64,000 nucleotides of DNA, taken from Branchiostoma floridae (lineage: Eukaryota; Chordata; Leptocardii; Amphioxiformes; Branchiostomatidae). This document shows, in pieces, positions 869 to 58,113 of the stretch (position 1 is the first letter of the stretch; each line of letters begins with the position of its first letter). Position numbers and translations under genes: made by a program. The notes beneath the pieces are model-generated. The model searched no databases. It was given only the letters and a program-made list of their open reading frames with translations, and had not been told where the DNA came from. The DNA lies in assembly GCF_000003815.2 (NCBI RefSeq), contig NC_049989.1:20525255-20589254 (forward strand), in the 5' to 3' direction.

Positions 869-3800
869 CTCCACCACCTCAGCGATAAGAGACAGCCCCT
901 TCTCCCAGTTCTGTACAGTCTGCAGGAAAGGTCCCACGAACCGCGAGGCTGACATGCTCTGTAGGTTCATGGCATTGTCGTCCAGAATCTGCATGACGTC
1001 GTCAACGGAGCCCAGGATGAACCCACGGTCGGAGGTGCCTATGGAGTAAAAAAATAAGTTATTAAACAAAGAAGTTATTAAACAGCTCAATTCATAATTT
1101 TTCCAGAAAGGAGACAGCTACTTATTTAGTAGTCTGTATCTGTATAGTGATTTGGTGAAACATACCAGCATCTGTATCTGCCCAGTACCTATATAACCAG
1201 TATAACAGCCATTTGGCATAAAACACACAACAGTCACAATGCACAGCAGCAGCTGGTTATATTACATTGAGGAACCTGTTGCATCTAACTTTGCACATGT
1301 AGCTGCAAGTGCTGTTTAAAGCAGCTATACAGTGAGGACACCTTTCAGAGACAGCATAGCACAGAATTCAGCACCAAGGACAGGTCTATTGTCTAGACTG
1401 TTTAAGGAAAAGCAACGTATCTCCACTAAGTTTTATTCAATAGGAAGCTCTCATTTTCTGGTCATTGGTTCAATATGTACCGACTGATCTTACCTTTGAT
1501 GTATTTGTGCACCATAAACTTCATACTGGCCCACGTCTCCTCTACTTCCTTGATGCCCTGTTGGGAAAGACAAAAAGAGATATGAAGTGTGATATAAAGT
1601 CCCTTATCTAAAGAGCATACTTCATTCTAAACTACATATCATTTTGGCATTCCTTCATGACATAATCAAAAGAAGAGCCATAGCCTGAGGTGGTGGCTAC
1701 ATGGAGATGCTTTAGACATATTGACAGTATCAAAGACATGTCAACGTCACTTTTCCAAGACATACCTTACCTTCTTGATACTGACTTTCTTGAATGTGAT
1801 AAGTAAATTCTAAGACAACTAAACGTGCCACCTGTATAGGTAACAAGACATGTACCTTCTCAATACTGAGTTCCTTGGATGCGGAGGTGACGATATCAGC
1901 GATGGTTTCTGCGTAGTTGTGCAGGTCCATGGCAAACAGGTTCTCCAGAGTGAATGTTTCGGGGTTCATGTCAAACGACTTCCCCGTTTTCTCCATCAGC
2001 TCCTTCCAATGGCTGGAAAAAAAGCAATGATGGGGACAAATAATTTTTTTCTGAATCTTTCTACATGTATCTATGCTTTTCACTTTCAATAAACCATTAT
2101 TTGCTCCCTAGATGTGTTGGTTTGTATTTCTGGAAAAGACTGAAAAACTCATCACGGACCAACAAACGTATCTAGCAAAATGAATCAGAAAAGTCCTCTG
2201 ACTCTAATTCTTCTTAGCTGCTTCTAATGGCTGACAGTCAGCAAGGAGAATCAGAACTGTATTTCAATAGCTCAGTCTCATTATTCATTTTATTAAACTG
2301 CTTCATTTCTTTCCATTTCCATACTTAGTTTTATTCTAATTACTTTTAAAAAAAACATTGATTGAACTCCTTCATGGATATGTCGGTTTGTATTTGAAGT
2401 CTGTTATGGATCAAACTGAAAACTTTGAAATCGAACAAGTATTCCCAGGAAAATGTCTGACTGAATCAAAGAAGACCGATGCCAATGCAGTACGTATCTT
2501 ATAGTTCGTGTTACACATAAGACTGTTTCCACATCATTACATGCTCTCAAGTTTTAAAGAATATCCAAAAGTTTCAAAAGAGTGTACCGTTCTCGCAGTG
2601 CCTCGTGCTTGAGATCCACGAAGAGCGGGATGGAGGCCTGGAACTCCCTCATCTTGGCATCCAGGTGATGGGCGCAGGGGAGGCTCTTCACATCCTTCGG
2701 CATCCTCTTCAGCTGCTTGATAAACCCTTCAATACCCTCCACTAGCTGGTTCACGTTCAGGTTGGCCCAGAGGGTCTGGGACCACTCCTCACGGGCGGCC
2801 TGGGGAAATATGGTCACAAAACTTTTAACTACAATCACATTACAACAGAAGGATGCCTATTACAACTACTTCTGATACTAAGCTACTACTACTACTATTA
2901 CTAGGACTACTTCTATGGTTATACTACTACCACAACTACTACTAGGAGGACTACGGTTATGGTACTACTACTGGTACCACTCACCACTACACTACTTCTG
3001 CTACTACTACTTCTTCAAGACAAGTACTACTACTACCACTACTACTATTGCTACCTTTTGCCAAAAAAAACTAAATATAAAAGGCTGCTTCTACAGTCAA
3101 ATTGCATGAAAGGTGTGAACGAAAACAACAAATGTACCAAAAATAAACAATGTTATGCAATAAATAATAGATAACAACTTGTACGTGGGACCTGCATCTA
3201 TTTGTAAACCTGTAAAGTGTCTACACTTCATTGTAATTAATCTGAATATCAAACCTTCTGTTGCTTGTATAGAGTGTAGATCATCTCCAGCCCCTTCATC
3301 TCCTTCTGCACCTGCTGTAGCAGTGGGTACATGGTGATGGGCAGGTCAAACAGACGCTCAGCGTTCGCCAGCTCCTGTCTCTCTCTCTCGTACTTCGCTA
3401 GCTCCTTCTGATACTGTTCCAGAATCTCAACTCCTGCAGAGATAAAATGCAACAGGTATGAAATGTGATGTCTAATAATTTTTACTGATGGTTTCATAGA
3501 GGCAAGAATAATTGCAATGGGACTGTTGAGAGTTTTTAAGTCTTGGAATGAGTACTCAATGAAGTCCAAAGTCTTTCTATGATCTTTTGATGATCTCTGA
3601 TCTCTAAGGTCTGTCAGTAATACTAGTGATCTCCAGGGTTTTTCAATGTTATTGATGATCTCAAAGGTATTCTTAATCCTATGCAAAGATCTCCATGGAT
3701 AATGTTTCTTGGTCTCTCATCCAACAGATGGCAACCAGCAGCTAGAATACCATAAGTTGCCATGAGCTGCCTGGCCAAAAGTGGGATAACAATGTTGTAC

Positions 3801-6800
3801 ATGGGAAGATTACAGACGGAGATCAACAGAGGTGAGGGTGCAGGTGTGCTTTTCTATACAGAAATCAATTAATGAAGATTGGTATAAGGTGGACTAAAAA
3901 CTCATTGTGTTTGGAGGAATAGGACCATGTTAATGCCAAAGATATTACTTTTTTAACTTCTTTATCATCATAAAAAGGATTTGGTTGTGTCAAGAACTCT
4001 AACATCTTCCTGAAGTACCCACTAAGCCAGCTGCAGACCTCACCTTTGTCTAAGTCTGCCCCCACGGCTCCCGGTCCCTCAGCGTGGAACTTCTCCCCAA
4101 AGTTGTTCAGGTCCTTGTCGTACTCCTGAATCTGTTGCAAGGTGATCTGTGTCCAGCAAGGAAAATGAATAAGAAATAATCTTTACCAGGGACAGGTACC
4201 ATCTGAATGAATTTCTATCACATTAAAACAATGCAAAGTGCTATTAGGTCTCTTATTGCCATAGTCAAACCTGTACAAGTGAACACCTCTACATAAGGCA
4301 GGCTCGGAAATACCATCTGCATATGCAGGTTAGTGCAGGTAAAATTGGAGCTGTACAGGTACCAACTGCCCACATAGACCAGATTTTATTGTTCGTCTGA
4401 GTGGTCTTCTTGGCATTAAGGTTTGACTGTACTTTAATATACTGCAATGACATAAAATTTCCCCAGTGCAGTTTGGCTCCTCATACCCGGTGTAACTGTT
4501 ACACAAGACCTAGCTTCTGGTAGTTATGTAAACCATGTAAGGTGGACAATATTCTATGCAGTGTAATTTGGTATACCAATCTAACCCCAGTGTTTCCTCT
4601 TGTTTCTGATATTCTTCTGTGTCATCTCAAGGATCCAGGTAAAATACATTCTAAACTATGGTGTTTGACATTAGCTAATGACTGTTGTTTTAGCTACAAG
4701 ATGTATGCTGACTGTGAATAAAAGTGTGACAACCCTACTTGTCTGATCAAAGCTTATCTATTTCTACATATCATGGTGTCTATGGGACCACTAGTGGTGT
4801 TTGTAGGTCCACTATTTTTGAGGTGATCACCACCTCACCACATCACCTGACTGTACTCACTTCTAGACTCATATGCTGTGTTTTGTAAACATCAATGAAG
4901 ATAAAAAGGGATGAAAGTTCAACATTAATTTGACATAATCAGGTTATACACAGTAAAGATTGTTCATTGTAGTACTCTAAGTTATGTGCTATCATTTGGT
5001 AACAGCTATCAAGGACTACTTTGACGTCTGGTTAATCTTGGGCTGGGAATATGAGAATTTCAGTTTTTAGTAGTTACAGTTTAAACAGGGTACATGACTT
5101 TAATGGATTATACTAGACCTCTAAACTAAAAAAAATGTGATACTTTGCTACTAATTTATCCAATAGACCATTTCCCCCATTACTCAGTGATTTTACCGAG
5201 AATGGTCAGGATTCATGTTTGTCAAGTTTTGTATGTTTCTCTATCTTCTTCTTCTGCACATCTAAATGTTGAGTAAGTATGAGCCATGGAATTGTTAAAT
5301 TTCTAAATAATACATAACAAATATTAAAATGGGTTGAAGACTGACCTCGGTGAACTTCTTCTTGACAGGTGCAAGGCGTGCGTCCACACGTTTGGAGTCC
5401 AGGAACAGGTCTCCCCAGATCTGGGGCATGTCTTTCACCAGATCCGTCTCCTCTTCTGTCACCTGGGGAGGACATGGGGCAGTTTCAGTATGGAATTTCT
5501 ACACTAATTAATAATTCTGCTTTTAAAAAGTTTAAGTTTCCCGAGCATCTGTAACAGATGCTTAGGGGTGGCGTCCATCCCCGTTTCTGTAGCCCTTGAG
5601 CCACACATGTGTGCAAGTCACTATAGCAGAGGGCTAGTCAGCTTGTAGTGTTGTGTGTTTATCTCTCCTCATTAGTGTTTATTCTTTCTCATTAGTGCCG
5701 AGTGCATAAGCAGAGAATACAGCACATATCATTTCTATTATTTTAAAGTCTTTGGTGTGACCAAATACAAGTCTATCCACTCTGCTATTGCATCTGTCAA
5801 CATTTGCTTTGCACAAAGGAGGCACAGGTTACTAGATTTACTGACACACCTCCCCAGTACTGTATTCTTTAAATTAATGCCTATATATGCCAAAAGGTGT
5901 TTGAAGCTAAAAAAAGTACCAGACACTATAATGTGCTGATAGACTAAATTAAATGTTCTGAGATGTAGCTTGCTACACATTTTCTGCCCTATATTTAAGT
6001 ATTGAGAAGCCCACCTCTATTTTGTACATGCCCAATGTGCGATATCTCTCCTGTAGGTCAACAAATCTCATCTCCACGTCAAGTGAGATGTCCTTGATGT
6101 TGGCGATCACGCCGAGAACAAACTTCAGATCCTCCAAGGTGTCCGGCACCTTCTTCAAGTCAGAGGTCTGGCCCTGGAGACAGAAGACAAAAATCATTAA
6201 GGTTTCTCAATGTATATGAGTAAGGAGGAATTGGTATATCAGCATTCTATTGTATTTAGCTGACATGTATTCTAATGACAGTAATGTTCATCATAACATT
6301 TTTTGCTGTCTCCAATATAAGATTCTTGATTCATACAAATTTTGCAATAAAGAATATCTTATTTAGATTAATTTTAAGACTTTTACCTAAATGCACATTT
6401 TGTTGCTGCAGTAACACTTGCGCTATTACTTTGACCTTTCCCTTCTAACTCTGCTTTTAGTTAAGCATTGTCTTTTCAAAAATCTGATAACCAACAAATT
6501 GATATGGTGAGGCTTTATGTGTGTGTGTACAGGTCGGGGACATAATACCTGTTACAACACTGTGGATAACATTTTGTACAAATCAATAAACCAATTTGAT
6601 GACAAAATAATTCTGATGCCAGCCAATCTCTAGTTCTGTCTTGAGAGTGAAAAGAGAAGGGATCCTTCCCAGTGTGAGTGGGTCAAATAAATCTGTCTGG
6701 ATATGCAGATTGTACTCTTCAGTACAAACCTGGTGTGTTGGTTTACCAAGTATGCCATACAAACAAACCTCCAGTTCCGTCTTGAGAGTGAAGAGCTCTT

Positions 6801-8006
6801 CCTTGGCGGAGTCGTTGAGGAGTTTTCCGAGCGAGCTGACCCAAGCCTTGGCGTGGTCCTGTACCGTGGAGGCCAGCGGAGTCAGCTGCAGCCGGATACA
6901 GTCCTCATCTTTCACCAGGGGCTGCTCAGATACCTGGGAAATGAAAACAAGATTCTATATTAGATTTTATGCCATACCTGGGCCACAATAACAACCGATA
7001 TTGTGGCGTATCACACAGGCTTCCATTGAATGAAGCAAACACGCTCTACAAGCACCATGTTCGGCACAACAACAACAGGCAACTGTAGAGTGGTATCAGA
7101 CTTATATTTGATAATATTATCATTCTATTATCCAGTATTCTATTACCAAGAAGGAAATAAAATAAGTATCTGCCAGTATTAAAACAAGAATGCTTTCTGC
7201 TAATAACATGCTACATGGTTCAATGATTGCACCACTAGTTCAGCACCAAGGACAGATACTGTTCATATTTTCTCAAAGTTATACCGGTTATACTGGCAAG
7301 CTGCCTACATTGAAATTAATAACAAAAACAGCAATTATCTTTTCATTAGCAGTGATAAATATTACCTATTCTGTGAGTATAACATATAACATACAGACCT
7401 CGTGTGCAATCTTGGTGTAAAACTGAAGCTTCTCGTCGTAGGCCACACAGGACGGCTTCTTAGCAGCAAACTTCTCCATCATGATGCCCTGTAGAGGAAG
7501 GAAATACAGTCAGCTGTCTGAACAACTCTGGTCCTGCCACCAGATTCTGGTCATCAGAATTTCTTGGCTTCTTGAGCGGATGATTGATTTGTTAACATGA
7601 TAGAGGAAAACATAATGAATGAATATTCTAGTTTTTGTTTTTATTTTCACTCAGTCTTAGTCTTAGGAACAACCAGTTATACTTTGAAAGTTTCTAAATT
7701 TTTTTAAGTTTTTCAAATCTTAACCATTGCTACCAAAGGTGGTTCCTTTATCATCTTCAGTCACTGAACATTAAAATGCTTAAATCCTAGCAGTAAAGTA
7801 TTTGGATATATTTTGTTATACTGTAGCTCCTATGCTGCATCTGAGGAGGTCTTGGTGCTTAAAGCATATCAGGTCTTATAATTCTGTTCCAATCAATTTG
7901 CCCTCTAACTCATTCTTCCCTATTTGCACTGACTGTTCACATTCATACAGCAAAATATTTCATACATATGCACACACGCACGCACGCACGCACACGCACA
8001 CACACA

Positions 8007-8049
<43 letters not shown>

Positions 8050-11000
8050 ACACAAACAAACACACACAAACAATCACACACACACACACACACGCACACA
8101 CGCACGCGCGCACACACACACACACACAGACCTTGTGCAGTTTCCAGACCGGCCTGTATCTCTTCCACCTGCTCAGGTACTTGTTCAGCGCCATCAGCAT
8201 CTTCTGCACACACACACACGCACACACAAACAGACACACACAAACACAGACACACAGACCTTGTCCAGTTTCCAGAGTGGCCTGTATCTCTTCCACCTGC
8301 TCAGGTACTTGTTCAGTGCCATTAGCATCTTCTGCACATTCTGGGACACAAGCACACACATGTACACACACACAGACACAGACAAACACACACACAGACA
8401 AACAGACAGACCTTGTCCAGTTTCCGGAGTGGCCTGTATCTCTTCCACCTGCTCAGGTACTTGTTCAGTGCCATTAGCATCTTCTGCACATTCTGGGACA
8501 CAAGCACACACATGTACACACACACAGACACAGACAAACACACACACAGACAAACAGACAGACCTTGTCCAGTTTCCAGAGTGGCCTGTATCTCTTCCAC
8601 CTGCTCAGGTACTTGTTCAGTGCCATTAGCATCTTCTGCACATTCTGGGACACAAGCACACACATGTACACACACACAGACACAGACAAACACACACACA
8701 GACAAACAGACAGACCTTGTCCAGTTTCCAGAGCGGCCTGTATCTCTTCCACCTACTCAGGTACTTGTTCAGCGCCATCAGCGTCTTCTGGACGTTCTGG
8801 GAAGCCGTCACAACCAGGTCGATGACCCCGGAGTCTGCCGCGATGTCCGTGAAGAAGCTGAACACGATTGGTTCATCCTCCCCCTCTGCGTGCTGAGGAG
8901 GGGTCTCGATACAGGTGCCATGCATCCAGCGCACAAACAGCTTCGAACTGGAGATAGAAGTAGACACATATTCTAGTAAGTAAATGCTATTGCTAGTTGC
9001 GTTCACTGGACCCACACCCCACCCACCCCCACACATAACTATGAACTTATGAGCAAAGAAGTGAATTGCACCATTAAAACTCCTTAAAGTAGAAACAACA
9101 TGTAACTCTAATTTACCTTTATCTCTTTTCCAATGAAACTAGTCTTTTGGTTTCAAAAATATCTCTAAGTTGATGTATGGTATGTCTAAAAAGTATGTTG
9201 ACCCCTGAATTCTTTTTAGCCATAAAGCAAAAAAATTGATTGATTGGTTGGTTGATTCATAGGCTGATTGGCTGATTGATTGATTGATTGATTGATTGGT
9301 GGGTTGAATAATACTCAATATAATTATAGGTTTGCATCAATAATTCTTGCTGGTAAAATCTGTCAGTTCCCTCACCCTTCCACAGCATCTCTGACACAGT
9401 TCATGCATAGCTTGTAGATCTCGTTGGGGTTTGGCGTGAGGACGATCTCCGGCGCCGACAGCATGGCGTCGATCTGGAAGAGCGGCTTGGGGGACGTGAT
9501 GGCGCGACAGAACCACGACAGGTTTCTCTTCACAAGCTACAGGGAATAACAAGAGGAGGCAATTAGAGATGGTAGACTTCACCCACCCTCCAAATACTGC
9601 ATGTAGGATGTATGGCAATGCAGAGCTGTACGTAGTGTAAAAAATTCATTTCTTGCAACCTGTTTTTTGATCATCCTGTTTTCAGAATCAACAAAAACAT
9701 ATGTCTGTAGTTTGGAAGAAGATTGTAAGAGGGCCAACATTTATACACAAATATCATATCAATAAAAAGTGCAGCTCTGCTATAGACCAAAAATCTCGTT
9801 GTTTCCTCGATGGTACAATAAACTTATCAATCGCTCAGACATGCTTGGAGATACATTATATAATACTGTAACAGTAAAACTTAGATTCAGCAACAACTTA
9901 GATAACTATGTAAAATCGGATGGGAATGATTTAATGTGGCTTGTGACTGAAGGCTATTTCCTGTGCCAAGTGGTGTAGCCAAACCAGGAAGATTAACCCT
10001 TATGTTAGATTTAAGCACGCACCGCTACGAGAGAGTTGTAGACCCTGCTCTCCCAGTAGTTGTAGTAGGAGTGCAGTTTGTTAGATATAAGAACCTACCG
10101 CTGTGAGAGAGTTGTATACTCTTCTCTCCCAGTAGTTGTAGTAGGAGTGCAGTTTGGGGGACTTCCCCGTGTTGGTGTGCACCACCAGGCCCTCCATCTT
10201 GGTGAGGAGAGGACCGATGGCACGGTACTTCCTCGCAAGAAGCTCATAGTCTTTGGACCTCTCCCGCTCAATGTACTCAAAGAATTCCTGTAGAAAGAAA
10301 CAAAGTCAGTAAGCATACCTGCACAGGTAACGGTAACATGATTTGCAGCATCTGACTGCTGTAGCAAGAAAAAATTGGAATCTAGTGGAAGACCTGTACT
10401 ACGTACTCAGGGAATTGTTGTAGAAAACATTCAGTGTTCATTCAGTGTTTCATTACATGCAATAAGAATAAAGTTTATCCCATTCATAATGCTTTCTTTC
10501 CTTATCTTTTTCCTTCCGCTGTTTGTGAATATTCTCATCCATATCTTAAAGGACAAAAACGGACCACAAAACTGAAAGAATTGTACAGGGAAAAGTCAGT
10601 GTTAATAATATGACTTAATGTAAAGATACAAGACTAAAATAGACTAGTTGCTTACCTTAGCCCCTGGTAGTGTCTCCCCAGCCTTGGGAGGAGGAATCTT
10701 GAACAGGTTAGAGTTCTCCACCATGGCCAGGCGAGCGTTGATGTCCCGCGCATTCTTCTGGATCTGGTTCACTAACGACTCAAACTTGCCCATGGCCTTG
10801 GGCGGGAAGACAACGTTAACTCATCAGTTTCCACAACAGATGGACACACAGGCAAGTTAAGAATAATACTTAACTCCTTTTGGGGGACCGTAAGGTGTTT
10901 ATATGATTATCGTTAATACTGGGTCCAGTTCTAGTTATCTTCCTGTAGCTTTCTGAGTAGCTGTGTCAATGCAATTCTCACAGAGAAACAATTTCATAAA

Positions 11001-13384
11001 AAATATCACCAACACATGAAGGACATTTAGTACACTTCAACACCCAGAATAACTCTCTTCTTAGGAGATGAGAAAAGAATACCTCAGCATGGAATGAATG
11101 GAACTTAGTATACAGAAAAAACTACTTTCTTGGTACTTAAAGTTAAACAAATTTAGCAAAAAACAGCACCACCACATGAAGATAAGCAAAAGAATATCTA
11201 TTACTGCTTCAAGACCAATACTAACTGAATGAAATGAAATAAATGAAAAGACAAGAAAAAGACACATCAGCATGGAAAGAATAAAACGTGGTACAGAGAA
11301 AAGGTGCAGATGTACCTGCTGTACTCTGGAGACGTAGTCGTTGATGCCGAGAGAGTTCCAGTTCAGCCGCTTGTAGCCTGGTCGCAGGACTCTCCTCAGC
11401 TCACGAATGTGTTCATCCAGTAACTGGGTCTGCAAAACACAGGAACAAAAAAAATTTAGTTGCAGGTCTAATTTGGCCTTCCTACATGTTACACATCAAT
11501 TATCAACAGTCTATACCTGTCCCTAGTGCTGAAAATATTGTACCTTCCACTGTACATTATAAAATAGAAGGACAGGTATACTTCAGAAGTTTTTGCTTCA
11601 ACCTAGATTTGCTTGTCGACAAACTTGGTCTAAAACACAGAAACAAGACTTAAGCTACAAAACGTACTGGGAATATACTTGATGGATGGCAGTTGAAAAC
11701 ATATAGTAGTCTAATCTGCTAATTGCGAGAAGATGTAGAAAAGGCACCCACAAAACAGCCTTGGCATTTTGAAAATCAGGCAAACAGAAAAAGAAATAAA
11801 TCTTTCTATTTATTTAGTGATTTAAATGTAACTAGATTTAACAACAAGCCAGAGTTTTGTAATGTCTTATAGCTTATTGGGGTTCTGTCAAAAAGTTGTT
11901 GAGTTTCTTACTATAACACAAATTTCCAAAAACTAGCATCAACACACAAGGAAGAAGAGCAACAAGATAATTAGCACTACTTCAAGACCCAGACTAATTT
12001 TCATCTGAGAAGAAAAAATGAAACCTTAGCATAGAAAGAATACAATGTGAAACATTTGCCTACCTCAGCTTCGTCCAGTGAGCCCAGTAGTGAGTGGTAC
12101 CTGTTCAGCATGTGACGCAGTCCGTCCACATACCGGATGTACTTATCCTCCTGGTGATGCAGAAAATGGAAAACATGGCAGAATTCATCACCAAACTCAG
12201 CAAAGTGTATACAGCATCAGAGTAGTATTCATACATTGATAGCTGAAGCCATAAAAATATAAACATAGCACCGTAGGGAAGAAAACGGTTCTTCTGTGCA
12301 AGGATTAGATTTAACTCAACTAGTCTATGACGGCAAAAGCATTTGATCCACTTACATATGTGTGAGTTACTACTAACACTTACTTCATTACTACGTTGCA
12401 GGCATATTCTCTAATCATATAATATAGGTGACAATTGTTAGAGGAAGAAACAAAGATAAACTAAGTCCACAGAACTCTGTGTGCACGTGTGTGTCTGTGT
12501 GTGTGTGTGTGTGTGTGTTTCTCTGCAGAAACTACTTCCCCACATACCTGCAGTGCTACGTTCCTGGCTGTCTCAGGGATAGGAAAGCCCAGCTGTTCCA
12601 TGTACTTAGTCTCTGTGATGATCTCAGACAGCTCAGGGGCAAAGTCTACCACATACTTCACCTTCTTGGATTCTTCACCTTTAAGAAACATGGAAAACTA
12701 AAGTTAGACAATCATCTGAATAATATTTTAAACTCATACACATCACATGACACCATTATCTTGGGATTGCAACACCTTCCAATTGCTATCTTGCTTTGAG
12801 TCTACCCCCAATTGTGATATGTTTGACAGATCTCTATTGCAGTACACCCCAGGTATGCACAGTTTGGATATGCAAGAGTGCCTCATAATGGGGGATGTCA
12901 TACTGGAGATCTGAATGATGTCTTAGACATTATTTTTTCAGGGTGGAGGACGCATATTTCAGTTTGTAAGACCTGTTGACTTTTCTCTCTGCTGCCTAAC
13001 CCATACTTTTGGTGCAGATGGCTGCTTCAGATAGAAGAGAAGAAGGCTAAGAAAAAAAAGGCCAGTACCTAATGCAGGTGCCACTTTGTTGCCCTGTTCT
13101 ATACTTAACCCCATAACTAAAATAAATCTGGTGCCAGACGGCTACTATAGCAGGAAAAAGGACCAGTACCCCCTGCGGCTGCCTCCACCTTGCCCTGACC
13201 GATACCTATTCCCATAACTCAAACAAATCTAGTGCCAGAAAGCTGATACAGCAGGACGAAGAGAAAAACAAAGGCCACTACCAGCTGCGGGTGCCTCCTC
13301 CTTGCCCTGGCCCTCCTCCTCTGTCTGCTGAGGTTTGGCCAGCAGGTTCCTCTTCAGGAAACCTGGTAACACTAGACTAGACTA

Positions 13385-13417
<33 letters not shown>

Positions 13418-13526
13418 AATTACCAGCTGCAGGTGCCTCCTCCTTGCCCTGTCCCTCCTCCTCTGTCTGCTGGGGTTTGGCCAGCAGGTTCCTCTTCAGG
13501 AAACCTGGTAACACTAGACTAGACTA

Positions 13527-13559
<33 letters not shown>

Positions 13560-13668
13560 AATTACCAGCTGCAGGTGCCTCCTCCTTGCCCTGTCCCTCC
13601 TCCTCTGTCTGCTGGGGTTTGGCCAGCAGGTTCCTCTTCAGGAAACCTGGTAACACTAGACTAGACTA

Positions 13669-13729
<61 letters not shown>

Positions 13730-24391: not shown

Positions 24392-24993
24392 CGAAAGCAA
24401 AATAGTGTCGATAGTGTCGTGTGCAAAAAAGACAGCGGACGTGTTTTTCATCGCCTCTGCTCAAGTTCCGCAAGTTTTCGCTTTTTTCTCTTATATTCAG
24501 TAGATTTTATACCTGCTCAAAGTCCTTTTTTCGTTAAAGTACTAAATAGTGGTCATTTTGATAATATTTTTAAAAACTTTGTTATAAGTTCTTGCATTTT
24601 ATAGGCACAAACTTATTTTCAATCTTAGCGTCTAACGAATTCGTTCTTTTTCCTTTTTTCAATTCTTTATATATTCTTTCCTTGCTCATTTAGACCTTTT
24701 TATCAAGCTTAATTCAATTTTTTCGTTTTATTATCAAGTGGAGACTTTCATCTAGTATATACTTATAATATTTTTGATAGATTTTTCATACTTTTTGCAC
24801 AAGTTTATACTTATCATTAGCGCTTAACGGTAACGTTCTATTTTGAGGTTGTAATCGTTTCTTCAGGTCTAATTGGATTTTTCTGGCATCTAATTCATTA
24901 TTGAAGGTTATCTTTCTAAGTATGTTTTGAAATATACATTTACTAGAAAATTTCTATAAGAATTTTACAATTTTCATATACAAATTCAAACTT

Positions 24994-25231
24994 TTTCTTC
25001 GTGTCTAACGATTGAGCTCCATTAGACTTTTTTCGATTATTCTTAACATCGAATTTCATACTGTACCTTTTGAAAACAAAAGGAAACTCCGTTTTACTGG
25101 ATAGATTCACATATTCTTCGTGTCTAACGATTGTGTTCGATTAGACTTTTTTCGATTATTCTTAACATCGAATTTATACTGTGCTATTTGTAAACAAAAG
25201 GAAAGTCCGTTTTACTGGATAGGTTCACAAA
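24994..25231 (+). repeat. Two 119-bp tandem repeats in the retrotransposon 5' UTR
   Basis: Two units, 24994-25112 and 25113-25231, each contain GTGTCTAACGATTG followed by ATTAGAC, giving a GTCTAA/TTAGAC stem. They then share TTTTTTCGATTATTCTTAAC and AACAAAAGGAAA. Looser relatives of the CGTCTAACG core occur at about 24628 and 24826. Such 5' repeats often act as internal promoters; that role is inferred. Confidence 0.8.
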
Positions 25232-25282
25232 CTTGACAAGTTCTCCTGTTTCTGGTTTCCTCCGTTAATACTATTCTACGGG

Positions 25283-26572: not shown

Positions 26573-26719
26573 GAGGGAAAGGCATCAAACAAGAACAATC
26601 ATTTAGTTATTACACAAGAGAATACAGAAACTGCTTCACAACATCATAATCAACAAACTCATATACCTTGCAACTCAAGTATTAAAATTCTTACCAGGAT
26701 CAAGATTCAAAGAAGCAAG

Positions 26720-30839: not shown

Positions 30840-30879
<40 letters not shown>

Positions 30880-31148: not shown

Positions 31149-31801
31149 GCTGAAAACAAACAGGAAGAATTTCGTCTTTTGTTTGGTTTTCTGACTGTAT
31201 TTCGTTAAATTTGTTGGGTCACCGAATTTACACACATCAAGAAGTAAGTAGTCAAGTTACCTTTTCTATTGCAACGTCGTAGAAATGTGAATCGGACTCA
31301 GTTTTAAGTAACTTTTACCTGATCATCTTTTCGAACTCTGTCAGACACCTGTCGAATAATTTATCCAACAGGTGTCTCTTTAGTTCTGCCATTGAGTTCA
31401 ACAGTGAGTGTCACTTTAGTTCTATATGAAGAAAAAGTCAATTTTTGCCATTGAATTTAATAGTAACAACAGCGGCAAGTGGAATATTTTCTTTGTATAT
31501 AGTTCACTCAGGTAAATATTCTCAAGTGTAACTTATATTTGGAAGCACAAGCACTGTGGTGCTATAAATATAACGTTATACAATATCTAATAGACTATGT
31601 ACTGTATACTAACAACAAAAAAATGCTGCAGTGGGAAGAGTGTGGTCCAAAACATGACTGAGTTTATATTGACCCCTCATTCCGGCCCTAATTTTCTCAA
31701 AATTTCTATAAAAAAAAGTAATACCAACCTGATGAAACTATTCAAGATCTCTTGTAAGCATCTAAAGGAAAATCTCACCATCCAATCCACAGGTCCCAGC
31801 C
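31149..31801 (+). promoter_or_regulatory. TCHP 5' flank and presumed 5' UTR
   Basis: Non-coding sequence between the retrotransposon and the TCHP start codon. It holds an inverted repeat, GACACCTGT with ACAGGTGTC (about 31344-31376), and a short duplicated phrase around TTTAGTTCT. No TATA box or clear initiator stood out. With the retrotransposon removed, this flank would lie about 1.7 kb from the DNAH10 start. Confidence 0.4.
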
Positions 31802-43800: not shown

Positions 43801-46800
43801 ACAGGCACAGTTGATGTTTTACCTGGATTGACAGGCAGTGTGGTAAATGTGGTGTGCATAGGGCGTGCTGATAAATCAGCATTTTCCATGCCGTCAACAG
43901 GCACAGTTGATATTTTGCTCGTATTGACAGGCAGTGTGGTTGATGGTGCCACTTTACAGATCTTGTCTACAGAGTTGATATTTTTAAGCCTTTGTCCAGA
44001 GAGCATGGCAGGCTGGGAACATGCCATTTGGTTTACAAATGAAGGAGGTTTTGGAGGCCCATTTAGTTTTAACCAGATGGGAACCATCCTACAGTCACAC
44101 TTCCAGGGGTGTTGGAAATATACACATAAGGAATAGATGCCAACATGTTATATACTGACAGGGGAAGGACAGACATCTGGTTTGACTGCAGGTACAGCCT
44201 TTGGAGCATGGGTAGATTTGAGAGTATCCCTGCCTGAATCTCAGTTATGCTGTTGGAGTCCAGGTTTAGATGTTTCAGGCGGGGTAGATTTGAGAAAGTG
44301 TTTGGGTGAATCATACTTATCTGGTTGAAATTCAACCTCAAAGTTTCAAGCCATCGTAGGTTTAGAAATACTTTTGGCTGAAGGTCAATTATGTTGTTTT
44401 TGTTCAGGTACAAAGTGTGTAGCTGGGTTAGATTTGAGAATATACCAGTTTGAATATTGGTTATTCTGTTGCTGCATAGGTACAAATTTGCAAGCTTTGG
44501 TAGGTTTAAAAATGCGCCAGGTTGAATCATACTTATTTGATTGTTCTGTAGGTTTAAGAATGTGAGCTTTGGTAGATATGGAAATATCTCAATGTTGGTT
44601 ATTTTGTTGCAGTATAGGTTCAATTTTTCCAGGTCACTATACTTTGTGAGCCATGACACACTTAAAGATGAAATCTGATTTCTTTCCAAATTCAAATCAG
44701 TGACATATTTTGGCAGCCACCGAGGGATGCATGTGAGGCCCACCTTTATGAATGACCAGCATGATTTACACCTACTCCTGCAGTCATCATTTTTTGACTT
44801 CTTAAACAGCCAGCTTCTGGCATCCTTGGGCTCGAAGATGATGAGAAAGAAAATCAGCAGGTGCCACAGCTTTCTTCCCATATTGTCCTGCCTGCAAAAA
44901 TAATGTATGTAAGTAGTAGGGGGCACTAGAATGAATTTGAAACTAAAAAATGTCTCCAATTCATGCTTCCCTTAAAGTTCTGCAAAACATTTATGGCAAC
45001 AACCTTTCAAAGAAATTATGCCAAATAGCCTCCACTTAGTAACAAACACTGAAAACCTCTGTATCATTTGGCCACAACAGTTTGATTTTTAGGTTCTACT
45101 GAGTTGAAAATATAATGTAAAACTTGAATTTCAGGAGTGTCTGAGGAGGATTATGCAATTCTTGATTTATTTGTAGAGAACAAATCTATTATCCCACTGT
45201 GGCAATGTCTCCAGACTCTCCACCCATATTACACTGTGACAGTAGACTGCCCCAAACCAAAATAAATGAAATGACATGAAGCCAACTGGTTTTGCTATAC
45301 AGTCAAACCTGCCCGAGCGACCACCTCTTCTCAGCGACCACCTGGCCATTTCGACCGCTTTTTCTCGGTCCCGCTTTTTTTTCCCATTGACGTAAGCATT
45401 AAGCGACCTTTTCTCAATGATGACCTGGCCAACGCAACCGCGACCGGCCCAAATTGGGACCCATAACGACTGCATCATTTTCAAAATTGAGGTTTTCATC
45501 GATTTTTTATGATAACTAGCGCGATTTTGTGCCGAAATTGTTGTAAGAAAATCCCAATTTAGTTGTTACAGAAGTTGTTTTTTTTTCAAATCTATATCAG
45601 TATAAAGTGAACGAATGCTGAAACGTATATAGCCTCATACTTTTTATATTTCAGCCATACATAGTATGGTGAAATATATTGTATTCGTAATGTTTCTTCT
45701 TTCTTTCTTTCTTTCTTCTTTCTCCTGTCAAATCTTCAAAGTGATTCATCTCCGCCGTTCCTGGACCGAATGACCTGAAATTTGGCACAGGGGTAGAATG
45801 GGCCAATACCTTGATACCTTTTCTCAGTTTTTTCATATCTGCCTCTAAAATGATTTTATTGAGGTTTCAAGGTCATGTTTTGACCAAAATAAAATATATT
45901 GTCCCCCTGTACCCTGGTCTTACAATGGAATGGCCTGAAATTTGTTGTAGATAGGCATTAGATAGTTGGTAAAATGATCCAAGTAAAAGTTTTGACATAA
46001 ACTACTTTAAAATAATTAATTTTGGCACTTTTCTGAGGGGTAACTTGTTTTCTTTTGGCCTCCTGGCGTGACCTTCCGTGACCCCGCACGGAGTCCACAC
46101 CTGTGCGCGAAGAGCGAAGGCTAATTAATATTCATAAGCATAGCGGGCCGATACGCTGTGGCCTGGAAAAACGAAGCTGTAAAAGGCCCGCTACGCTGCT
46201 TTTTCATCCAGCGTAGCGGCAAAAAAATTGGGAAATAAAGAAAAACATCGTAGTAAAAATACATAGGCACGTGCCAAGCACGCGCCTTCGCTGTTTCAGG
46301 AAGTTATCAGCTCCAAGGGAGGTGTTTTATAGCACCGGCCCGCCGTACCGCTGTCTTGCAGCCTCTCCCAGGACCGCCGCGGAAATGTAAACAAAGCGGC
46401 GAGAAGGCCTTGCCGCACGTTCATCAGCAGGGTGGAATCCCTCCCCGGAACAGCCAATATGCATAAGCTTTCCCGCGAAACTCCTTACTTGGGGAGCGTG
46501 GTTGATGTAAACAAAGGCTCTTACTAGTAGTTGCGTCATTTCTTTTTCTGTGAGGAAAATACAATCAATTCTTTCTGACACATTTCTAGAGCAGGAACGG
46601 GTCGCGTTCCCCAATTTCCTGTTCTAAATTTTGCGTGTGCCGCCCTGCTTTCGCGCCAAAAAATGTAAAAAGTGTAGCGAGTGTGCCTTGCCGCGAGTTA
46701 TCAGTGGGGTGGGATACCTCCCCGGAACAGCCAGTTCCCGGGGAATGTCCCGTATTTGGGGATCGGGGTTGACCAACAGGCAGTTACTAGTAGTTGCGTA

Positions 46801-52800: not shown

Positions 52801-55800
52801 GCGGCAGAGACTGGCCGCCCTCAAAAAACAGAGGGAAGAAGAGATCAAAAGAATGAAGGCAGAGAAGAGACAAGCAGGCGTGCTGAAAGAGCAAGTGGAA
52901 GAATTGAAGGACAGGGAAAGAGAGGTACTTTATTATGCACTATACATTCCAGTGCAGGGTGCCTTGTCTGCTGTGTATGCAGTACCTCTACATACTGATA
53001 GAGGCACTTCTGATATGAGGGTGTTTTATTGCATGTACTATGTAAGATGTGTTGATGTGACATGGTGAGTTTAGAGGCTGTGTTTTGCCACAGGCTTGTT
53101 ATAGCTAATATCATCATTATTATAACACAGTGTAGAAACACTTTAGATTATGTTTTTGATAAAAGAAAATTTACTTGGGGGGGTATGATTATATTGACAT
53201 TGGACGGTAGTACATAGAGCTGGTTGTGACTCAAGGACTGGGGCCTTCTATTATCCTCTGGCGGTGAAAGAATGTGTAACACAAGCTAAAGTGAGCCCTG
53301 ATTTTGGGGGGCTTTTGTAACAAGAAGGCATTTTGTACCAGGCCGTTCTAACATGAGAGTGGTTTGTTCCAGGCCGAGGCCCTAAAGCAGGAGGAGGCAG
53401 AACTGCTGAGGCAGCAGTGGGAGCTGGAGAAAATGGTGAGTTCTCCAAACCCACCTGCACTTCTGGACTAGAGATCAAGAGTTCAAATCCCAGCTACCAT
53501 ACCTTACCTGAAACTAAAAAAATATTGATTATAGCATCAGCCCATATATATATTAAGCTAACATTGGATCAACATTGTAGATCAGTCTAAAATAGTCAAT
53601 TTGGGGGGGGGGGGGTACTTTTTACTCACTTGTCACATGTAATGTAACAAGAACTAAAGACAAGTTGACAACATCAAGGTTACAGGATGAGTGAGACTAG
53701 AACAGCATCTCTTCTCCCTAAGTCAGAAACATCGGGATTGAGACAAGTTCGACTCACTGAGAATGAGACTAACATTTGTTAACTGTGTGTAATAGTTAGC
53801 AGCATATAAAACATACCGTACATCTTACACCATCTGTCTTTGTAAACAATGTACAGGAATTTTTTTATGATTATTACTTTGTGTTCTATAGGAGGCAGAA
53901 AGAAAAGCTTTTGAAGAGCAGAGAAAGAAAGCAGATCTTGGGTAAGTTTCAGAGTTGATATGATTGTGATTGTTACTTTTATAATTCACACCACTTACTT
54001 GAAGATAATATACAGTTGAGGTTTGCAATAATCCATGATCATTTACATTGTTATTTCTACAAACAGATTTTTGAAATATATTACTTGATACTTTCTTAAC
54101 TTAGACTTAGTGTAATTCCAAATTTGTACCTTGTGTCCAAATAGCAAGTGACCCTAATTTAATAGCTATTATTTAGTGATAAATCTATAGCACATCAATT
54201 TTGTCTGTCAAACTTCACATTACAGACAAAGGCTAGGGCGATTGTTTGTCACGGTGGAAGAAGCTAAAACCTGATATTTGATATTTGACATTTTCCATCT
54301 CCCACCTTTGTTTACAGCCGAGCCCTGTCCAGGCAGTACAAGATGCAGATGAGGAGGAAGTCACAGCAGGTGCAGGAGGCACTGGTGAGTCACTGCTTCA
54401 TCATGGGTTTGGAAAGAATACTGAAACTGATGCTGTCCCTGTCTCTGCTCTCAAAGAGCTGGACCTTAAGATACTGGTACCGCTGACAGAGCAAAAGGAG
54501 GGACAAGTTTTAGGCGGATTGGTTGTGGGCAGATGGATGGGTGGTTGATTGGTTGATTGATGGAAATCCTTAGGAGGTAAGATGCTGGGTTAAGAAAAAA
54601 ACAATGAAGATTAGACATCCACATAATGAGATACACCAAAAAAGCAGAGATCATTCATCAGTGACACTGTGTAGGTCTTGTTGAACAGCAGTTTTTATAT
54701 CCTAACTATTTGACTTGATATGTAAAGCAGGTGAGGATAGTTGAATGGGGAAACAAAAGATAAGGTTGATGCAATTTATCGATTAGCTCCTGTGGTTTGA
54801 GTTGAGACTGACATTATCACTCTCCGCCCATCAGGAGCTGGACCGTAAGATCCTGGCAGCGCTGACGGAGAAAGAACAGGAGGACCGGAGGCTGGAGACG
54901 GAGCGGCGGGAGCGGGCGCAGGCGGATGCTGCCTGGATGAAGGAGGTTGTGGAGAAACAGATGAGGCTGGAGAAGGAGAGAGAAGAGGAGCTGGATGAGA
55001 TGTACAGGTGAGACAGGTTTACGTTGCTTACATTATCGTGATTAGTTGGTGGGCAGGCCTTTAGCTAGGATTTTTACATAGGGGTTCCAAATTTTGTTCC
55101 ATTGTCACAGCAAGTGATAAAGGCGCCAGTATTGCAGATGGGTCAAGGCTCATCCACTTTCCAATGCATCATGCAGAGTTTTAGAGTGTTTTTAAAAGTC
55201 ATGTCAGAGAGGTCACAGTTGAAGACAGGTCAATCAGAATGATATGGTTGTCAGACAATCTGCTTCCCAGTGCAAGGGCGCATAGTTCGTCCAATTTGTG
55301 ATTATTTTTAGAACAGCAGGTCTAGATGCATGACGCCAGAACGCATGGCTGGCTAAAAGCCTGTAGGTGGGGTTTTCTAGAAAAAATTGCTAGGGGAGTG
55401 CTGCAATGGAGCTAAGTGGCCTAGCTCAGTCTTAAGATTAAGAATTGAGTGGTGACTGAAAATTTGTTGGACCCTCCTGAGTTGGTGTTAGATTTCTTGT
55501 TCCTGTTACTAATTGATGATGTTTGTGTTTCAGACATGAGGCGGAGCGACAGTGGGCCAAGCGGGACGCAGAATGGGAGAGAGAGAGGCTGGCCAGGGAG
55601 AGGCTCATGAAGGAGGTACATTTTGCAACAGTCTGCAAAGTTTTGAATATATTGTCATAGTCTGTAAAAGAGGTGGTGGTTTAAGGTTCACAGTTTTTGC
55701 TGTGACCTGTTTCATAGGAACTTGAGAGCTTTCCCCAAAACTTGTGCCCCATGATCAACCTGAGCGTATGACTGGCATGTTGGCTTTATTAACCAGGGAT

Positions 55801-58113
55801 AAACAAGTCCACTAGCCCTATTGTCCAGGGCAAGTGAAAGTGCTGTTCGGGCAAGTGCATGTCCTACCCCACTTGTCCGATCGGGCAAGTAAGATTTTTC
55901 CATTGATTTTAGTGCAATTTTGATATACTTGTTACTTTTTACAGTCATGACATCAAGCAATTGTCTACAGAGAATTCCATTGCTGGAAGTGAAAATGCAT
56001 ATACTAGTAACAGTGACATTTGAATTTTGGGCAAGTGAAAAATTGGTTCGGGCAAGTACATTTTTTATGTGCTTGCCCGATAGGACAAGTGGATTTTAGA
56101 AAACTTGTTCAACCCTGTTAACCATCATGAGAACCTACCTTTGACCTGATTGACTTTGACCTGATTGACTGTGCCTGCATGACCTTGACCTGTGATGTAC
56201 CTGACCTTGACCTCTGCCCCCAGGTTCTGGAGGAGCGTCAGGACCAGCTGGCGGCTAAGATGGAGGCTCTGCGGCAGCGCCAGGCGGATGTTCTCCGGAG
56301 CCGGGAGGACCTGCTGAGGCAGCTTGAAGTGGCCAATCGGATGGCTCGGCAGGAGGAAGAGGAGAGGGAGAGGGCTGTGCTGGAGAGGAAGCAGGAGGTC
56401 GAAGGGCAGGTGGGTTTGACCTGTGACCTGTGACCTTACGGGTCTTAAACTTTGACCTGTCAGTGAGTAATAGTAATAGTTACAGGAGAAGGGCATGATC
56501 GGTCTACTGGTTATCGTTACTTGAAACAAAAAAGCAAGAGGCGAGAAGTTGAAGGGCAGGTGGGTTTGATAGGCTATTCTTGTGACCTGTAACCTCAATG
56601 GATTCCGTTTGTTTTGCATAATCAGTACTTTAGACAAAGAGCGGCAGCATAATTAATGAAAAGTGTAATTAATGGTAGTTGTGATTAGTGATGAATGTAA
56701 CAAGTGATCGCTTTGATTATCCCCCTGCCAGATCACGGAGCGCCGTGAGCGACAGCGTACAGCGCGGGAGCGGCTGGAGCAGGAGCTAGCTGAGGAGAAG
56801 CGAGCAGAGCAGGACTACGAGGAAGTGCTGAGGCAGGAGGCAGCCAGGCTCAAGCTGGGGGGCTTCGAACCAAAGGTGGGGGGTCGTTAATGTTGTAATT
56901 AGTGTAGAAATAATGATTATTGTAATTAGTGTAATTAGTGAAATGACAAGCGAGCAGAACAGGACTATGAGGAAGTACTGAGGCAGGAGGCAGCCAGGCT
57001 CAAGCTGGGGGGCTTCGAACCAAAGGTGGGGGGTCGTTAATGTTGTAATTAGTGTAGAAATAATGATTATTGTAATTAGTGTAATTAGTGAAATGACAAG
57101 CGAGCAGAACAGGAGTATGAGAATTGTACTGAGACAGGAGGCAGCCAGGCTCAAGCTGGGGGGCTTCGAACCAAAGGTGGGGGGTCGTGATTAGTGTTGT
57201 TATGGTGATTATTGTAATTAGTGAAAAATTGAGATAAGAGTGTAGCAGGACTATGAGGAAGTACTGAGGCAGGAGGCTGCCAGGGTCAAGCTGGGGGGCT
57301 TCGAACCAAAGGTGGGAGCTCATTACTAACTCTCACTCACTCACTATCCAGTTTAACGTCTCTTGTTCCCCATCCCATGGGGGTTAAACAGGAGGCTGCC
57401 AGGCTCAAGCTGGGGGGCTTCGAACCAAAGGTGGGGGAATGTTGTGATTTGATTTGATTTGATTTGGACTTCGGTAGCATTCAATACAGGTGTTCTGGAC
57501 CAAGTGGTAAAAAGCTGTATCACACGACTTCAAAGTTGTTTCACACAGGCTTCCATGGAACAGTTTGATTGTAGTCTGCATGCACCAAGTGCGCCACTGT
57601 CAAAACTTTGAAGACCTGATTTGATTTATTGAACTATCTGACTGATGCCTACCCGTGTCAGGGAACCCAGTAGCAGTATAATAAAAAAATGGATGCTTCT
57701 ATACAACATATAGAATACTACACAGGGTATTCCAATTGCCCGAGGTATGGCCTGACCACAGGTAGTATCACCAGAAGGCCAGAGGGCGATCCGACCCGTG
57801 GGAGGGCCAGGACTGAAGGCGATACGCAATACCTCTGTTGTATTTCATTCATATCATGCCAACCTGAGAAAACTCAAGTTTATCACAAAAAGAGCAGAAG
57901 ATGATTAGAATCAGAGAGGAGGACTTCAGACCAAAGGTATGTTAATTGTGCTATAAGGATTCAGCTAAGAGAGTCTCAGTTTAGATTTGACAGTGAAAAG
58001 TTTATGTCGCACAGACAGAAATAACATGCTTCATTTGTGACAGTCGGACATTAATATGTACTTCTTTTCTCCTACAGTCATACCCAAGGAGCCGACGGTC
58101 GGCTTGGGACTAA
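31802..58113 (+). CDS. TCHP: Trichoplein keratin filament-binding protein, 14 exons, complete
   Basis: Coiled-coil centriolar protein. In vertebrates it binds keratin, supports microtubule anchoring at the centrosome and activates Aurora A to restrain primary cilium formation. Exons: 31802-31992, 32547-32714, 33240-33282, 33627-33683, 34284-34352, 52751-52924, 53373-53435, 53892-53941, 54318-54384, 54835-55007, 55534-55615, 56224-56409, 56732-56875, 58078-58113. All introns are GT/AG and phases close: 1,503 nt, 500 aa, against 498 aa recalled for human. The start MALPTLPSYW is the hallmark TCHP N-terminus, in a strong context (GCCATGG). The middle is almost entirely Glu/Arg/Lys/Gln-rich helix (TPH-type coiled coil), with ADAAWMKE near residue 330 matching the human ADVAWMK block. 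The C-terminus, FEPKSYP...SAWD, aligns with the human end (YRPKPYG...IAWN). Intron 5 is 18.4 kb and full of insertions. Exons 2, 10, 12 and 13 have partial copies beside them. Confidence 0.95.
32822..32945 (+). repeat. Copy of the 3' edge of TCHP exon 2
   Basis: The last ~65 nt of exon 2 plus ~55 bp of intron recur 173 bp downstream, with a GTGTGT donor. One substitution in the exon frame turns a GAG into TAG, so the copy would stop translation if spliced in. It is probably silent or a poison segment. Confidence 0.85.
34999..35200. repeat. GC-rich palindromic subterminal repeats, left side
   Basis: Clustered variants of GTCCGAGG, GGTTCGGACTGG and CCGTCCGG form a high-GC island just inside the left inverted end. 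The mirrored cluster lies at 42130-42620. Such subterminal motifs are usual binding sites for a transposase; that role is inferred. Confidence 0.65.
37974..38101 (+). repeat. Direct repeat inside the 7.9-kb element, copy 1
   Basis: About 128 bp, from GACAGGCGGATCTC to CTGCCCCTGGGGATAA, is repeated in the same orientation at 40053-40179. The shared core contains CCCGAACCGTT and GATTATTGTCAGCAGGG. The pair brackets the LINE fragment. Confidence 0.75.
38643..39746 (+). pseudogene. 5'-truncated LINE: reverse transcriptase C-terminal part
   Basis: A 367-codon open frame matches only the thumb and C-terminal region of a non-LTR reverse transcriptase. It has NSYPYLGLTLSSSGTY and LYGSEIWG near the start and a C-x2-C-x9-H-x3-C motif (CKYC...HFICNC) near residue 290. 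The fingers and palm with the catalytic YADD are absent. Homology starts near 38690, so the first codons may be host sequence. The copy ends in an AT-rich tail with AATAAA (39855-39876). No RNase H is seen, so it belongs to a different clade from the intact retrotransposon; CR1/L2-like is a guess. The open frame suggests a recent, dead-on-arrival insertion. Confidence 0.8.
40053..40179 (+). repeat. Direct repeat inside the 7.9-kb element, copy 2
   Basis: Second copy of the 37974-38101 repeat, about 80 percent similar by eye, 2.08 kb downstream. Confidence 0.75.
42130..42620. repeat. GC-rich palindromic subterminal repeats, right side
   Basis: Dense variants of GTTCGAAC, GTCCGGAC, CCGTCCG and GAACCGTT. 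This is the right-hand counterpart of 34999-35200. Long frames on both strands here are composition artefacts. Confidence 0.65.
42810..44881 (-). pseudogene. Frameshifted LRR transmembrane receptor, 3' end formed by a transposon
   Basis: Intronless paralogue of the receptor at 59750-62437, antisense within TCHP intron 5. The start (MGRKLWHLLIFFLIIF, a signal peptide) aligns with MGRKLRHLLIFLLIIL of the paralogue. In both, an AG acceptor-like site sits 6-12 bases upstream, suggesting a spliced 5' UTR. An LRR N-cap and about nine LRRs follow. At 44105-44120 a one-base deficit breaks the frame between ISNTP and the expected LRR C-cap; the next frame continues W-K-C-D-C-R-M, then four 32-residue stalk repeats. 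After these come a transmembrane helix (about VVIASVCGAIAGIVLIGAII) and a cytoplasmic tail with several tyrosine sites (YVEP, YMQA, YEMP, YIKL) and proline stretches. The last nine codons and the stop come from the transposon end ending near 42834. The frameshift may be real or an assembly error. Confidence 0.85.
43638..43939 (-). repeat. 96-bp tandem repeats coding the LRR receptor stalk
   Basis: Unit starts lie at 43638, 43734, 43830 and 43926, exactly 96 bp apart. Each encodes a 32-residue Ser/Thr/Pro-rich unit containing TTLPVN..K.STV. The intact paralogue carries only two such units, so the stalk length varies. This looks like a mucin-like spacer likely to be O-glycosylated. Confidence 0.88.
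46406..46898. repeat. Diverged direct repeat of about 220 bp
   Basis: 46406-46632 and 46684-46898 share GCCTTGCCGC, CCTCCCCGGAACAGCCA, ACTAGTAGTTGCGT, AATCAATTCTTTC and CGGGTCGCGTTCCC in the same order, offset by 278 bp. It lies inside the 45300-49824 element and codes for nothing I recognise. Confidence 0.75.
48635..49713. mobile_element. Nested 1,079-bp TA-flanked DNA transposon, non-autonomous
   Basis: The left end, ACGGGGGCCGCCCTAAGACG, is mirrored by the right end; about 18 of 23 terminal positions agree. TA flanks both ends (48633-48634 and 49714-49715). Removing the element plus one TA restores the uninterrupted sequence seen in the MITE at 347-833 (ccattta then tactttgc), which gives an empty-site comparison within the same window. 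It contains no long coding frame. Confidence 0.82.
49827..52010. other. Intron interior with no recognisable gene
   Basis: AT-rich remainder of TCHP intron 5. Two weakly similar stretches (about 50560-50960 and 51680-51960) share phrases such as AAGGATT(T)CTGGTCCTCT, AGCTGAGCAGTCACA and GGCAA followed by a GTTTA(A/G) motif, so an old ~1.1-kb duplication is likely. No coding sequence was recognised. Confidence 0.5.
52011..52456. mobile_element. MITE with TAGGG(A/G)TGG inverted ends
   Basis: The 446-bp element starts TAGGGGTGGATACCGGTACA and ends TGTACCAGTACCCATCCCTA, a near-perfect inverted pair. Interior ends are rich in palindromic GGTCCGGACC and GGACCTG motifs. GTACCTAATA occurs just outside on the right (52457) and again at 51994, 7 bases left of the left end, so a duplication is suggested but not flush. 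The ends resemble hAT-type MITEs. No coding frame. Confidence 0.7.
54452..54510 (+). repeat. Degenerate copy of the 5' edge of TCHP exon 10
   Basis: GAGCTGGACC, TAAGAT.CTGG and CGCTGACAGAGCAAA, which open exon 10 (54835), occur 380 bp upstream after a pyrimidine-rich stretch ending CTCAAAG. The copy lacks a donor and has drifted. Confidence 0.7.
55793..56117 (+). mobile_element. 325-bp MITE flanked by TTAA
   Basis: The left end, CCAGGGATAAACAAGTCCAC, and the right end, read in reverse as CAGGGTTGAACAAGTTTTC, are inverted. TTAA lies at both borders (55789-55792 and 56118-56121). The interior repeats GGGCAAGTG motifs in both orientations. It is the compact relative of the 7.9-kb element in intron 5 and of the fragment at 18509-18645. 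TTAA duplication is typical of piggyBac and Kolobok elements, but that assignment is tentative. Confidence 0.72.
56526..56600 (+). repeat. Copy of the 3' edge of TCHP exon 12
   Basis: The exon 12 end and donor (GAAGGGCAG then GTGGGTTTGA) recur about 140 bp downstream, with the following TGTGACCTGTAACCT intron phrase. Only about 25 exon bases are kept. Confidence 0.75.
56943..57440 (+). repeat. Tandem array of TCHP exon 13 3' edges
   Basis: After exon 13 (56732-56875) four more copies of its end (GGGGGGCTTCGAACCAAAG, then a GTGGG donor) occur, with GGCTTC at 57011, 57162, 57297 and 57416. Spacing from the real exon is 150, 151, 135 and 119 bp. The first and third copies keep the exon frame from GAC TAT GAG onward (21 codons) after a CAG; the second has a frame-shifting indel and the fourth is short. 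Pyrimidine tracts before them are poor, so use as exons is doubtful. Confidence 0.88.
57916..57936 (+). repeat. Possible fifth, degenerate TCHP exon 13 edge or micro-exon
   Basis: EEDFRPK followed by a GTATGT donor lies 140 bp before the last exon. It parallels the exon 13 end (GGFEPK then GT). The human protein has YRPK at this junction, so the resemblance is notable, but length comparison favours skipping it. Confidence 0.4.

Follow-up and report, generated by a model that had tools for sequence, protein, structure and literature searches.

Why should the ends of exons be copied, time after time, beside the exons to which they belong? The question is raised by a 64-kb stretch of the Branchiostoma floridae genome (contig C11:20525255-20589254; hereafter the window), for which an original prediction had claimed ten copied exon edges in two neighbouring genes and a duplication process tied to splice junctions. 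The minus-strand gene is DNAH10, which has 82 exons over 67 kb, extends beyond the window toward lower coordinates, and was annotated past it. Seventy-seven exons were mapped in the first 24 kb of the window and the adjoining 40 kb, and five more were called in the next 10 kb by an ab initio exon finder. Exons 58 and 59 each have one edge unpaired beside an N gap (the acceptor of exon 59 was placed by hand), and the predicted donor of exon 34, considered erroneous, was excluded from the unit-length test described below. The DNAH10 exon numbers used here are those of the original prediction minus one. The joined exon peptides of the N-terminal part matched PDB chain 8j07_k8 (dynein axonemal heavy chain 10) at 1666 bits, with 1691 bits for another chain of near-equal length and a different label; the rest of the peptide matched 9fqr_K2 (dynein axonemal heavy chain 10) at 4450 bits over 2340 query residues in a single colinear stretch.

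The plus-strand gene is presumably TCHP, a name taken from the original prediction and in keeping with its N-terminal MALPTLPSYW. Two plus-strand stretches, scanned against Pfam in three frames each, and two leucine-rich-repeat stretches, scanned in one frame each, returned no families. The latter two, at 43602-43940 and 59740-62192 on the minus strand of the window, hold frames that resemble leucine-rich-repeat proteins as judged from reading the translation; their coding 72-bp and 96-bp repeats are ordinary protein repeats with no junction copies.

Copies in the window were found by self-BLAST (E 0.01) and TRF, and the units were also read directly. The features, in window positions, were as follows.

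869-23316, minus strand: DNAH10 exons 1-30 (of 82), from the splice-site map and peptide matches to DNAH10 PDB chains.
17834-18178, minus strand: DNAH10 exon 8 (originally 9; exon 17988-18178) with one donor-end copy at 17834-17901; self-BLAST 84% over 68 bp, offset 147-148.
15898-16525, minus strand: DNAH10 exon 10 (originally 11; exon 15898-16014) with five upstream acceptor-end copies; 92-bp unit, TRF 5.8 copies, 97%.
13055-13913, minus strand: DNAH10 exon 13 (originally 14; exon 13736-13913) with three donor-end copies; 142-bp unit with (TG)n, 92%.
10003-10287, minus strand: DNAH10 exon 18 (originally 19; exon 10099-10287) with one donor-end copy; 76-bp unit, 88%.
8070-8947, minus strand: DNAH10 exon 20 (originally 21; exon 8716-8947) with four donor-end copies; 152-bp unit with (TG)n, 91-96%.
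6586-6933, minus strand: DNAH10 exon 22 (originally 23; exon 6769-6933) with a donor-end relic of about 27-31 bases, seen by eye and under the BLAST threshold.
31793-32714, plus strand: presumed TCHP exons 1 (31793-31992) and 2 (32547-32714); ab initio bounds from the exon finder and translation.
32650-32952, plus strand: TCHP exon 2 donor end with a copy 174 bp downstream; 84% over 130 bp.
54456-55007, plus strand: TCHP exon 10 (54835-55007) with a relic of its start at 54456-54494; 85% over 39 bp, offset 379.
56224-56567, plus strand: TCHP exon 12 (56224-56409) with a donor-end relic of about 25 bases near 56540-56567, seen by eye only, with no alignment match.
56732-57449, plus strand: TCHP exon 13 (56732-56875) with four donor-end copies; 150-bp unit, TRF 3.6 copies, 89%.

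Eight of the ten claimed edges thus passed the alignment threshold (E 0.01), and DNAH10 exon 22 and TCHP exon 12 stood as short relics recognised by eye, the former about 150 bp downstream and with its splice site lost. The printed units bore out the statement that the exon end and the adjacent intron are copied together, with the exception of the TCHP exon 10 copy, whose alignment begins at the exon edge and which consists of exon bases without intron bases. As predicted, the copies of DNAH10 exon 10 and TCHP exon 10 lie on the acceptor side according to the alignments, and the spread of ages is as wide as had been claimed, from the 97% identical array of DNAH10 exon 10 down to relics at 72-85%. 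Besides its array, DNAH10 exon 13 has older relics at 13055-13239. In the arrays of exons 13 and 20 (13279-13727 and 8070-8802), TG tracts lie behind the donor site, and slippage may feed array growth.

The association with junctions was quantified over the whole of DNAH10. A duplication cluster was defined by an offset of 25-600 bp and a score of at least 44 bits, with low complexity removed, and was taken to include a junction when the copied segment held at least 12 exonic and at least 2 intronic bases; the null expectation was the fraction of all positions where a segment as long as the unit would satisfy this rule. Under this unit-length null, 19 of the 25 clusters included a splice junction against 5.48 expected (P = 4e-9), and in DNAH10 the proposed tie between duplication and junctions was therefore upheld. 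A corresponding excess was observed in the 44 kb of the gene outside the window, which the original prediction had not covered (14 of 19 against 4.23 expected, P = 1.2e-6), inside the window (5 of 6 against 1.17, P = 0.0011), and among clusters of at least 90% identity (10 of 12 against 2.96, P = 2.5e-5). Expressed as rates, 19 clusters fell in the 14.7 kb of positions that cover an edge (about 13 per 10 kb) versus 6 in 52.3 kb elsewhere (1.15 per 10 kb), which by simple arithmetic on the cluster counts places junctions at about 11 times the rest of the gene.

Copied edges account for 19 of the 161 scored and affect 18 of the 82 exons, with both edges copied at exon 79. They comprise the donors of exons 8, 13, 18, 20, 35, 41, 57, 61, 65 and 79 and the acceptors of exons 10, 34, 37, 56, 59, 60, 74, 79 and 81; with 10 donor and 9 acceptor edges, the predicted donor bias disappears across the whole gene. 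Wider offsets add the donor of exon 38 (726 bp) and the acceptor of exon 49. Of the six clusters that lack a junction, one consists of the exon 49 acceptor-end copies, which lie 1.5 kb away from that exon, and another, at exon 64, holds 8 exonic bases. The former are two tandem copies in intron 48 (gene position 38586-40395; C11 about 20508860-20510668; loci L023 and L024), about 1.5 kb upstream with 1.4 kb of other sequence between, and an insertion perhaps split the array.

A cruder null, in which whole array footprints were rotated, gave 14 of 21 DNAH10 clusters against 10.7 expected (P = 0.08), and 10 of 15 against 7.5 outside the window (P = 0.12). It was not kept as the main test, since array growth followed the initial duplication; the unit-length null was chosen after the footprint-rotation result was known, and both are given. 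The edge criterion was also altered, from 8 bases on both sides in the footprint rotation to 12 exonic and 2 intronic bases in the unit-length test, after the 8-base rule had been seen to miss junction copies with short intron parts.

The excess could also be read without any targeting of junctions, if short duplications arose everywhere, those internal to exons were purged, and those at edges survived and stayed detectable for longer, one of their copies being constrained. None of the 25 DNAH10 clusters falls within an exon, as purging predicts, and a copy held by selection prolongs detectability; the footprint rotation is in line with this reading, as is a random sample in which no edge excess appeared. 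That sample comprised 20 random 10-kb loci of C1 (170 kb), scored with the ab initio exon finder at a threshold of 22, which on DNAH10 (63 kb) had recovered 70 of 77 exons and 126 of 140 exact edges, wrongly calling 6 exons on the strand of the gene and 11 on the opposite one. At the random loci, 1 of 20 clusters coincided with a predicted edge against 0.7 expected (P = 0.53), the power being low with only 35 exons predicted; in the remaining 40 kb of the window, 2 of 12 clusters did so against 0.69 expected (P = 0.15). However, a twofold detection advantage of edges would still leave P = 1.7e-5 for the whole gene (5e-4 outside the window, 0.012 inside, 0.002 at 90% identity or more), and a fourfold advantage P = 0.0064 (0.033, 0.079 and 0.044, respectively). 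The excess persists among the clusters of at least 90% identity, and the purging of exons does not lift edges above introns, yet the rate away from edges in DNAH10 equals the background (20 clusters per 170 kb, or 1.2 per 10 kb, at the random loci). An origin without targeting is, on this evidence, rather unlikely. Duplication that is frequent throughout exonic or GC-rich DNA, combined with purging of the exon-internal cases, would look the same as junction targeting.

Beyond the two genes of the window, junction-copy structure was found in three further dynein heavy-chain genes on three chromosomes: an exon donor end in four units of about 122 bp (L029, C1), an acceptor end in a 75-78-bp unit across at least 957 bp at 94-99% identity (L030, C19), and an 80-bp donor end at 94%, with a spacer and an offset of 147 (L031, C13). 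Single exon-end relics were seen at L006 (acceptor at 9156) and at the adjacent locus L027 (donor near 6815). With about 12 units, L030:1-957 (C19:2339501-2340457) is the longest junction array encountered; it begins at the first fetched base and may be longer. L029:906-1349 and the array of DNAH10 exon 35 (C11:20521813-20522184) are donor-edge arrays of two paralogous dynein genes on different chromosomes; both affect the protein region YEYxGxxxRLVITPLTD, but not the same junction.

The genic loci L002, L026 and L011 yielded no cluster that included a predicted junction, one predicted exon in L002 appearing to be false. Lists of AAA_6, AAA_9 and myosin-head matches, which detect mainly copies of about 20 or more codons, were inspected by eye. 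Extra AAA_6 matches to the same range within 600 bp accompanied 3 of about 112 exon matches outside DNAH10 versus 2 of 7 inside it, among the 122 of 152 candidates scored and with three ambiguous pairs uncounted. No clear case was seen in 83 AAA_9 matches, those of DNAH10 included (79 of 79 candidates scored), or in 149 myosin-head matches (65 of 348 candidates scored, several ambiguous overlaps uncounted); protein kinase matches were mostly long and single-frame and were not used for edges. The process had been suggested to be either local or genome-wide. The structure does extend beyond the two genes, to the dyneins on C1, C13 and C19 and to the relics at L006 and L027, whereas a genome-wide excess at junctions did not emerge from the random sample (1 of 20 against 0.7 expected). 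Junction duplication is genome-wide but uneven, and it is much rarer in other dynein genes than in DNAH10. DNAH10 is unusually rich in junction copies and may be a special case; TCHP seems likewise rich.

Tandem units that lie across an intron-exon boundary, at either edge and with many copies bearing AG or GT signals, are known in amphioxus as mirages and, in the accessible text of two reports, are described from Adh3, the globins Gb6 and Gb9, and PGBD5, with units of 10-72 bp in Adh3 and 150-160 bp in the globins (PMC3087553, PMC3902484). An Adh paper is cited there as the first description, and the minisatellite class at exon borders that the original prediction had mentioned does exist under this name. 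The copies in DNAH10 and TCHP belong to it: in DNAH10, the units span the junction in 19 of 25 clusters, either boundary is affected (10 donor, 9 acceptor), and the units of directly tandem arrays fall within the 10-160 bp known from Adh3 and the globins, with some pairs spaced rather than directly tandem. The globin paper proposes intron gain from mirages, with splicing seemingly undisturbed, in the portion available (PMC3087553); in DNAH10, the intact colinear reading frame suggests that splicing may be normal despite the copies. In the literature searched, outside which most subscription papers lie, no genome-wide count of mirages and no null model was found, the class having been reported gene by gene. 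The new elements here are the counts against a null, with 19 of 161 edges copied in one gene, apparently the separation of some copies by unrelated sequence, and the measured synonymous excess between exons and intronic copies.

Directly tandem arrays have units of mostly 75-155 bp, and in wider-spaced pairs (offset 174-513 bp) the copied part is 39-130 bp. When 26 units were compared with one another by BLAST, with simple repeats masked, the only match was between two paralogous dynein exons; sequence common between loci, as for an introner or a transposable element, was not encountered among these units. The exon 59 copy (83 bp at 94%) is separated from its exon by about 88-100 bp of unrelated spacer and the exon 74 copy (81 bp at 93%) by 104 bp, and the spacers of these young copies did not match the flank of the copy. 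Spaced copies of this kind could result from fill-in with filler, from templated insertion, or from a later insertion that separated originally tandem copies. Age polarity along arrays was not uniform: the nearest copy was the most similar one, ties included, in 10 of 13 clusters, and exceeded the farthest in 7 of 13.

When one copy per DNAH10 exon was compared with the exon, 49 synonymous and 25 nonsynonymous differences were observed, while a neutral copy beside a silently changing exon predicts 30.6-39.8 synonymous ones (P from 1e-5 to 0.02 by mutation model, the excess being weakest, P = 0.02, under the strongest CpG model). Changes private to the intronic copies of DNAH10 and TCHP numbered 45 synonymous and 30 nonsynonymous, against 35% synonymous under neutrality (P = 9e-6), and fixed differences between exon and copies in the same genes numbered 21 and 5 (P = 0.002); these P values are rough, since the changes in any one array depend on each other. 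The synonymous excess is poorly explained by one duplication that then decayed neutrally. It can be accounted for, with no need for the copies to have a function, if an evolving, polymorphic exon was copied repeatedly or if alleles exchanged sequence, and weak constraint on the copies may play a part.

Selection on the copies themselves, as alternative exon ends or latent coding spares, would agree with the private changes, with the 2 stops in 883 codons, and with the splice dinucleotide, which no fewer than 36 of 42 copies retain (the true number may be higher, since two TCHP edges were misplaced by a few bases). Exon-derived parts also differ less among intronic copies (6.7%) than intron-derived parts do (11.8%), but the latter figure is inflated by simple-repeat and intron-only matches, exon 38 above all. 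Moreover, if the copies were taken from a changing exon at various times, up to about 52% synonymous changes would be expected without selection, near the 60% seen, and the frame or splice site has been lost in some copies (DNAH10 exons 8 and 22). The unit periods are divisible by three in 9 of 26 cases, which is the chance level; in-frame coding use, and with it the coding potential that had been proposed, is not indicated, and a functional role of the copies appears improbable. Stacking of alternative haplotypes or misjoined reads in tandem is very improbable as the source of the copies: misassemblies and allelic swaps are described for an amphioxus draft in the available part of one report (PMC2632668) and a mirage aberrantly assembled in the draft in that of another (PMC3087553), but many copies have substitutions of their own, relics are 72-85% identical and spacers are unrelated, none of which is expected from allele stacking, the exons are colinear with the DNAH10 chains, and re-sequencing of PGBD5 argued against assembly error in the text seen (PMC3902484).

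We consider it probable that the copies arise as recurrent break-repair duplications at junctions, tolerated because splicing would continue to use the site next to the exon. A break close to the junction, or staggered nicks there, would be followed by fill-in and end-joining to give a direct repeat, in which the copied part, about 40-190 bp, would run across the exon-intron junction and unrelated filler would sometimes be left between the copies. Some duplications would then expand into minisatellites by unequal exchange between copies and alleles. The copies would persist because the splice site beside the exon body still works and the others remain inside the intron. New copies would repeatedly be drawn from the living exon or its alleles, which would explain why copies differ from the exon mainly at silent positions. 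The (TG)n or (ATG)n tracts in the arrays at exons 13, 20 and 56 suggest that slippage may start some arrays.

Small tandem duplications at breaks with protruding ends have been demonstrated in mouse cells in work on CST and Pol alpha-primase, according to the part of the report consulted (PMC8355091). These are likewise short direct repeats, and they arise mostly without a need for prior repeats; unlike the copies described here, they were obtained with Cas9 nickases in mouse cells and, in that text, bear no link to splice junctions or amphioxus (PMC8355091). Intron gain by tandem genomic duplication (the AGGT model, with potato RdRp as an example) is also a local duplication that carries splice signals and could turn an interval into an intron, as far as the accessible text describes it (PMC4974935); here, however, the copied splice site is already part of an existing intron, and no new intron was seen.

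The quantitative evidence comes from one gene, DNAH10, and with an excess this strong in a single long gene, the question of junctions can be put to the test with gene models and population data. As a tentative and still doubtful extension, the splice junction itself may be a germline mutational hot spot in this lineage, where break-and-copy events would follow the exon-intron structure at about ten times the background, resample the living exon through its alleles, and leave an intronic reservoir of splice-competent, frame-preserving exon ends for boundary shifts or new introns. A process that duplicates junctions would provide raw material for intron gain by tandem duplication and for shifting exon ends.
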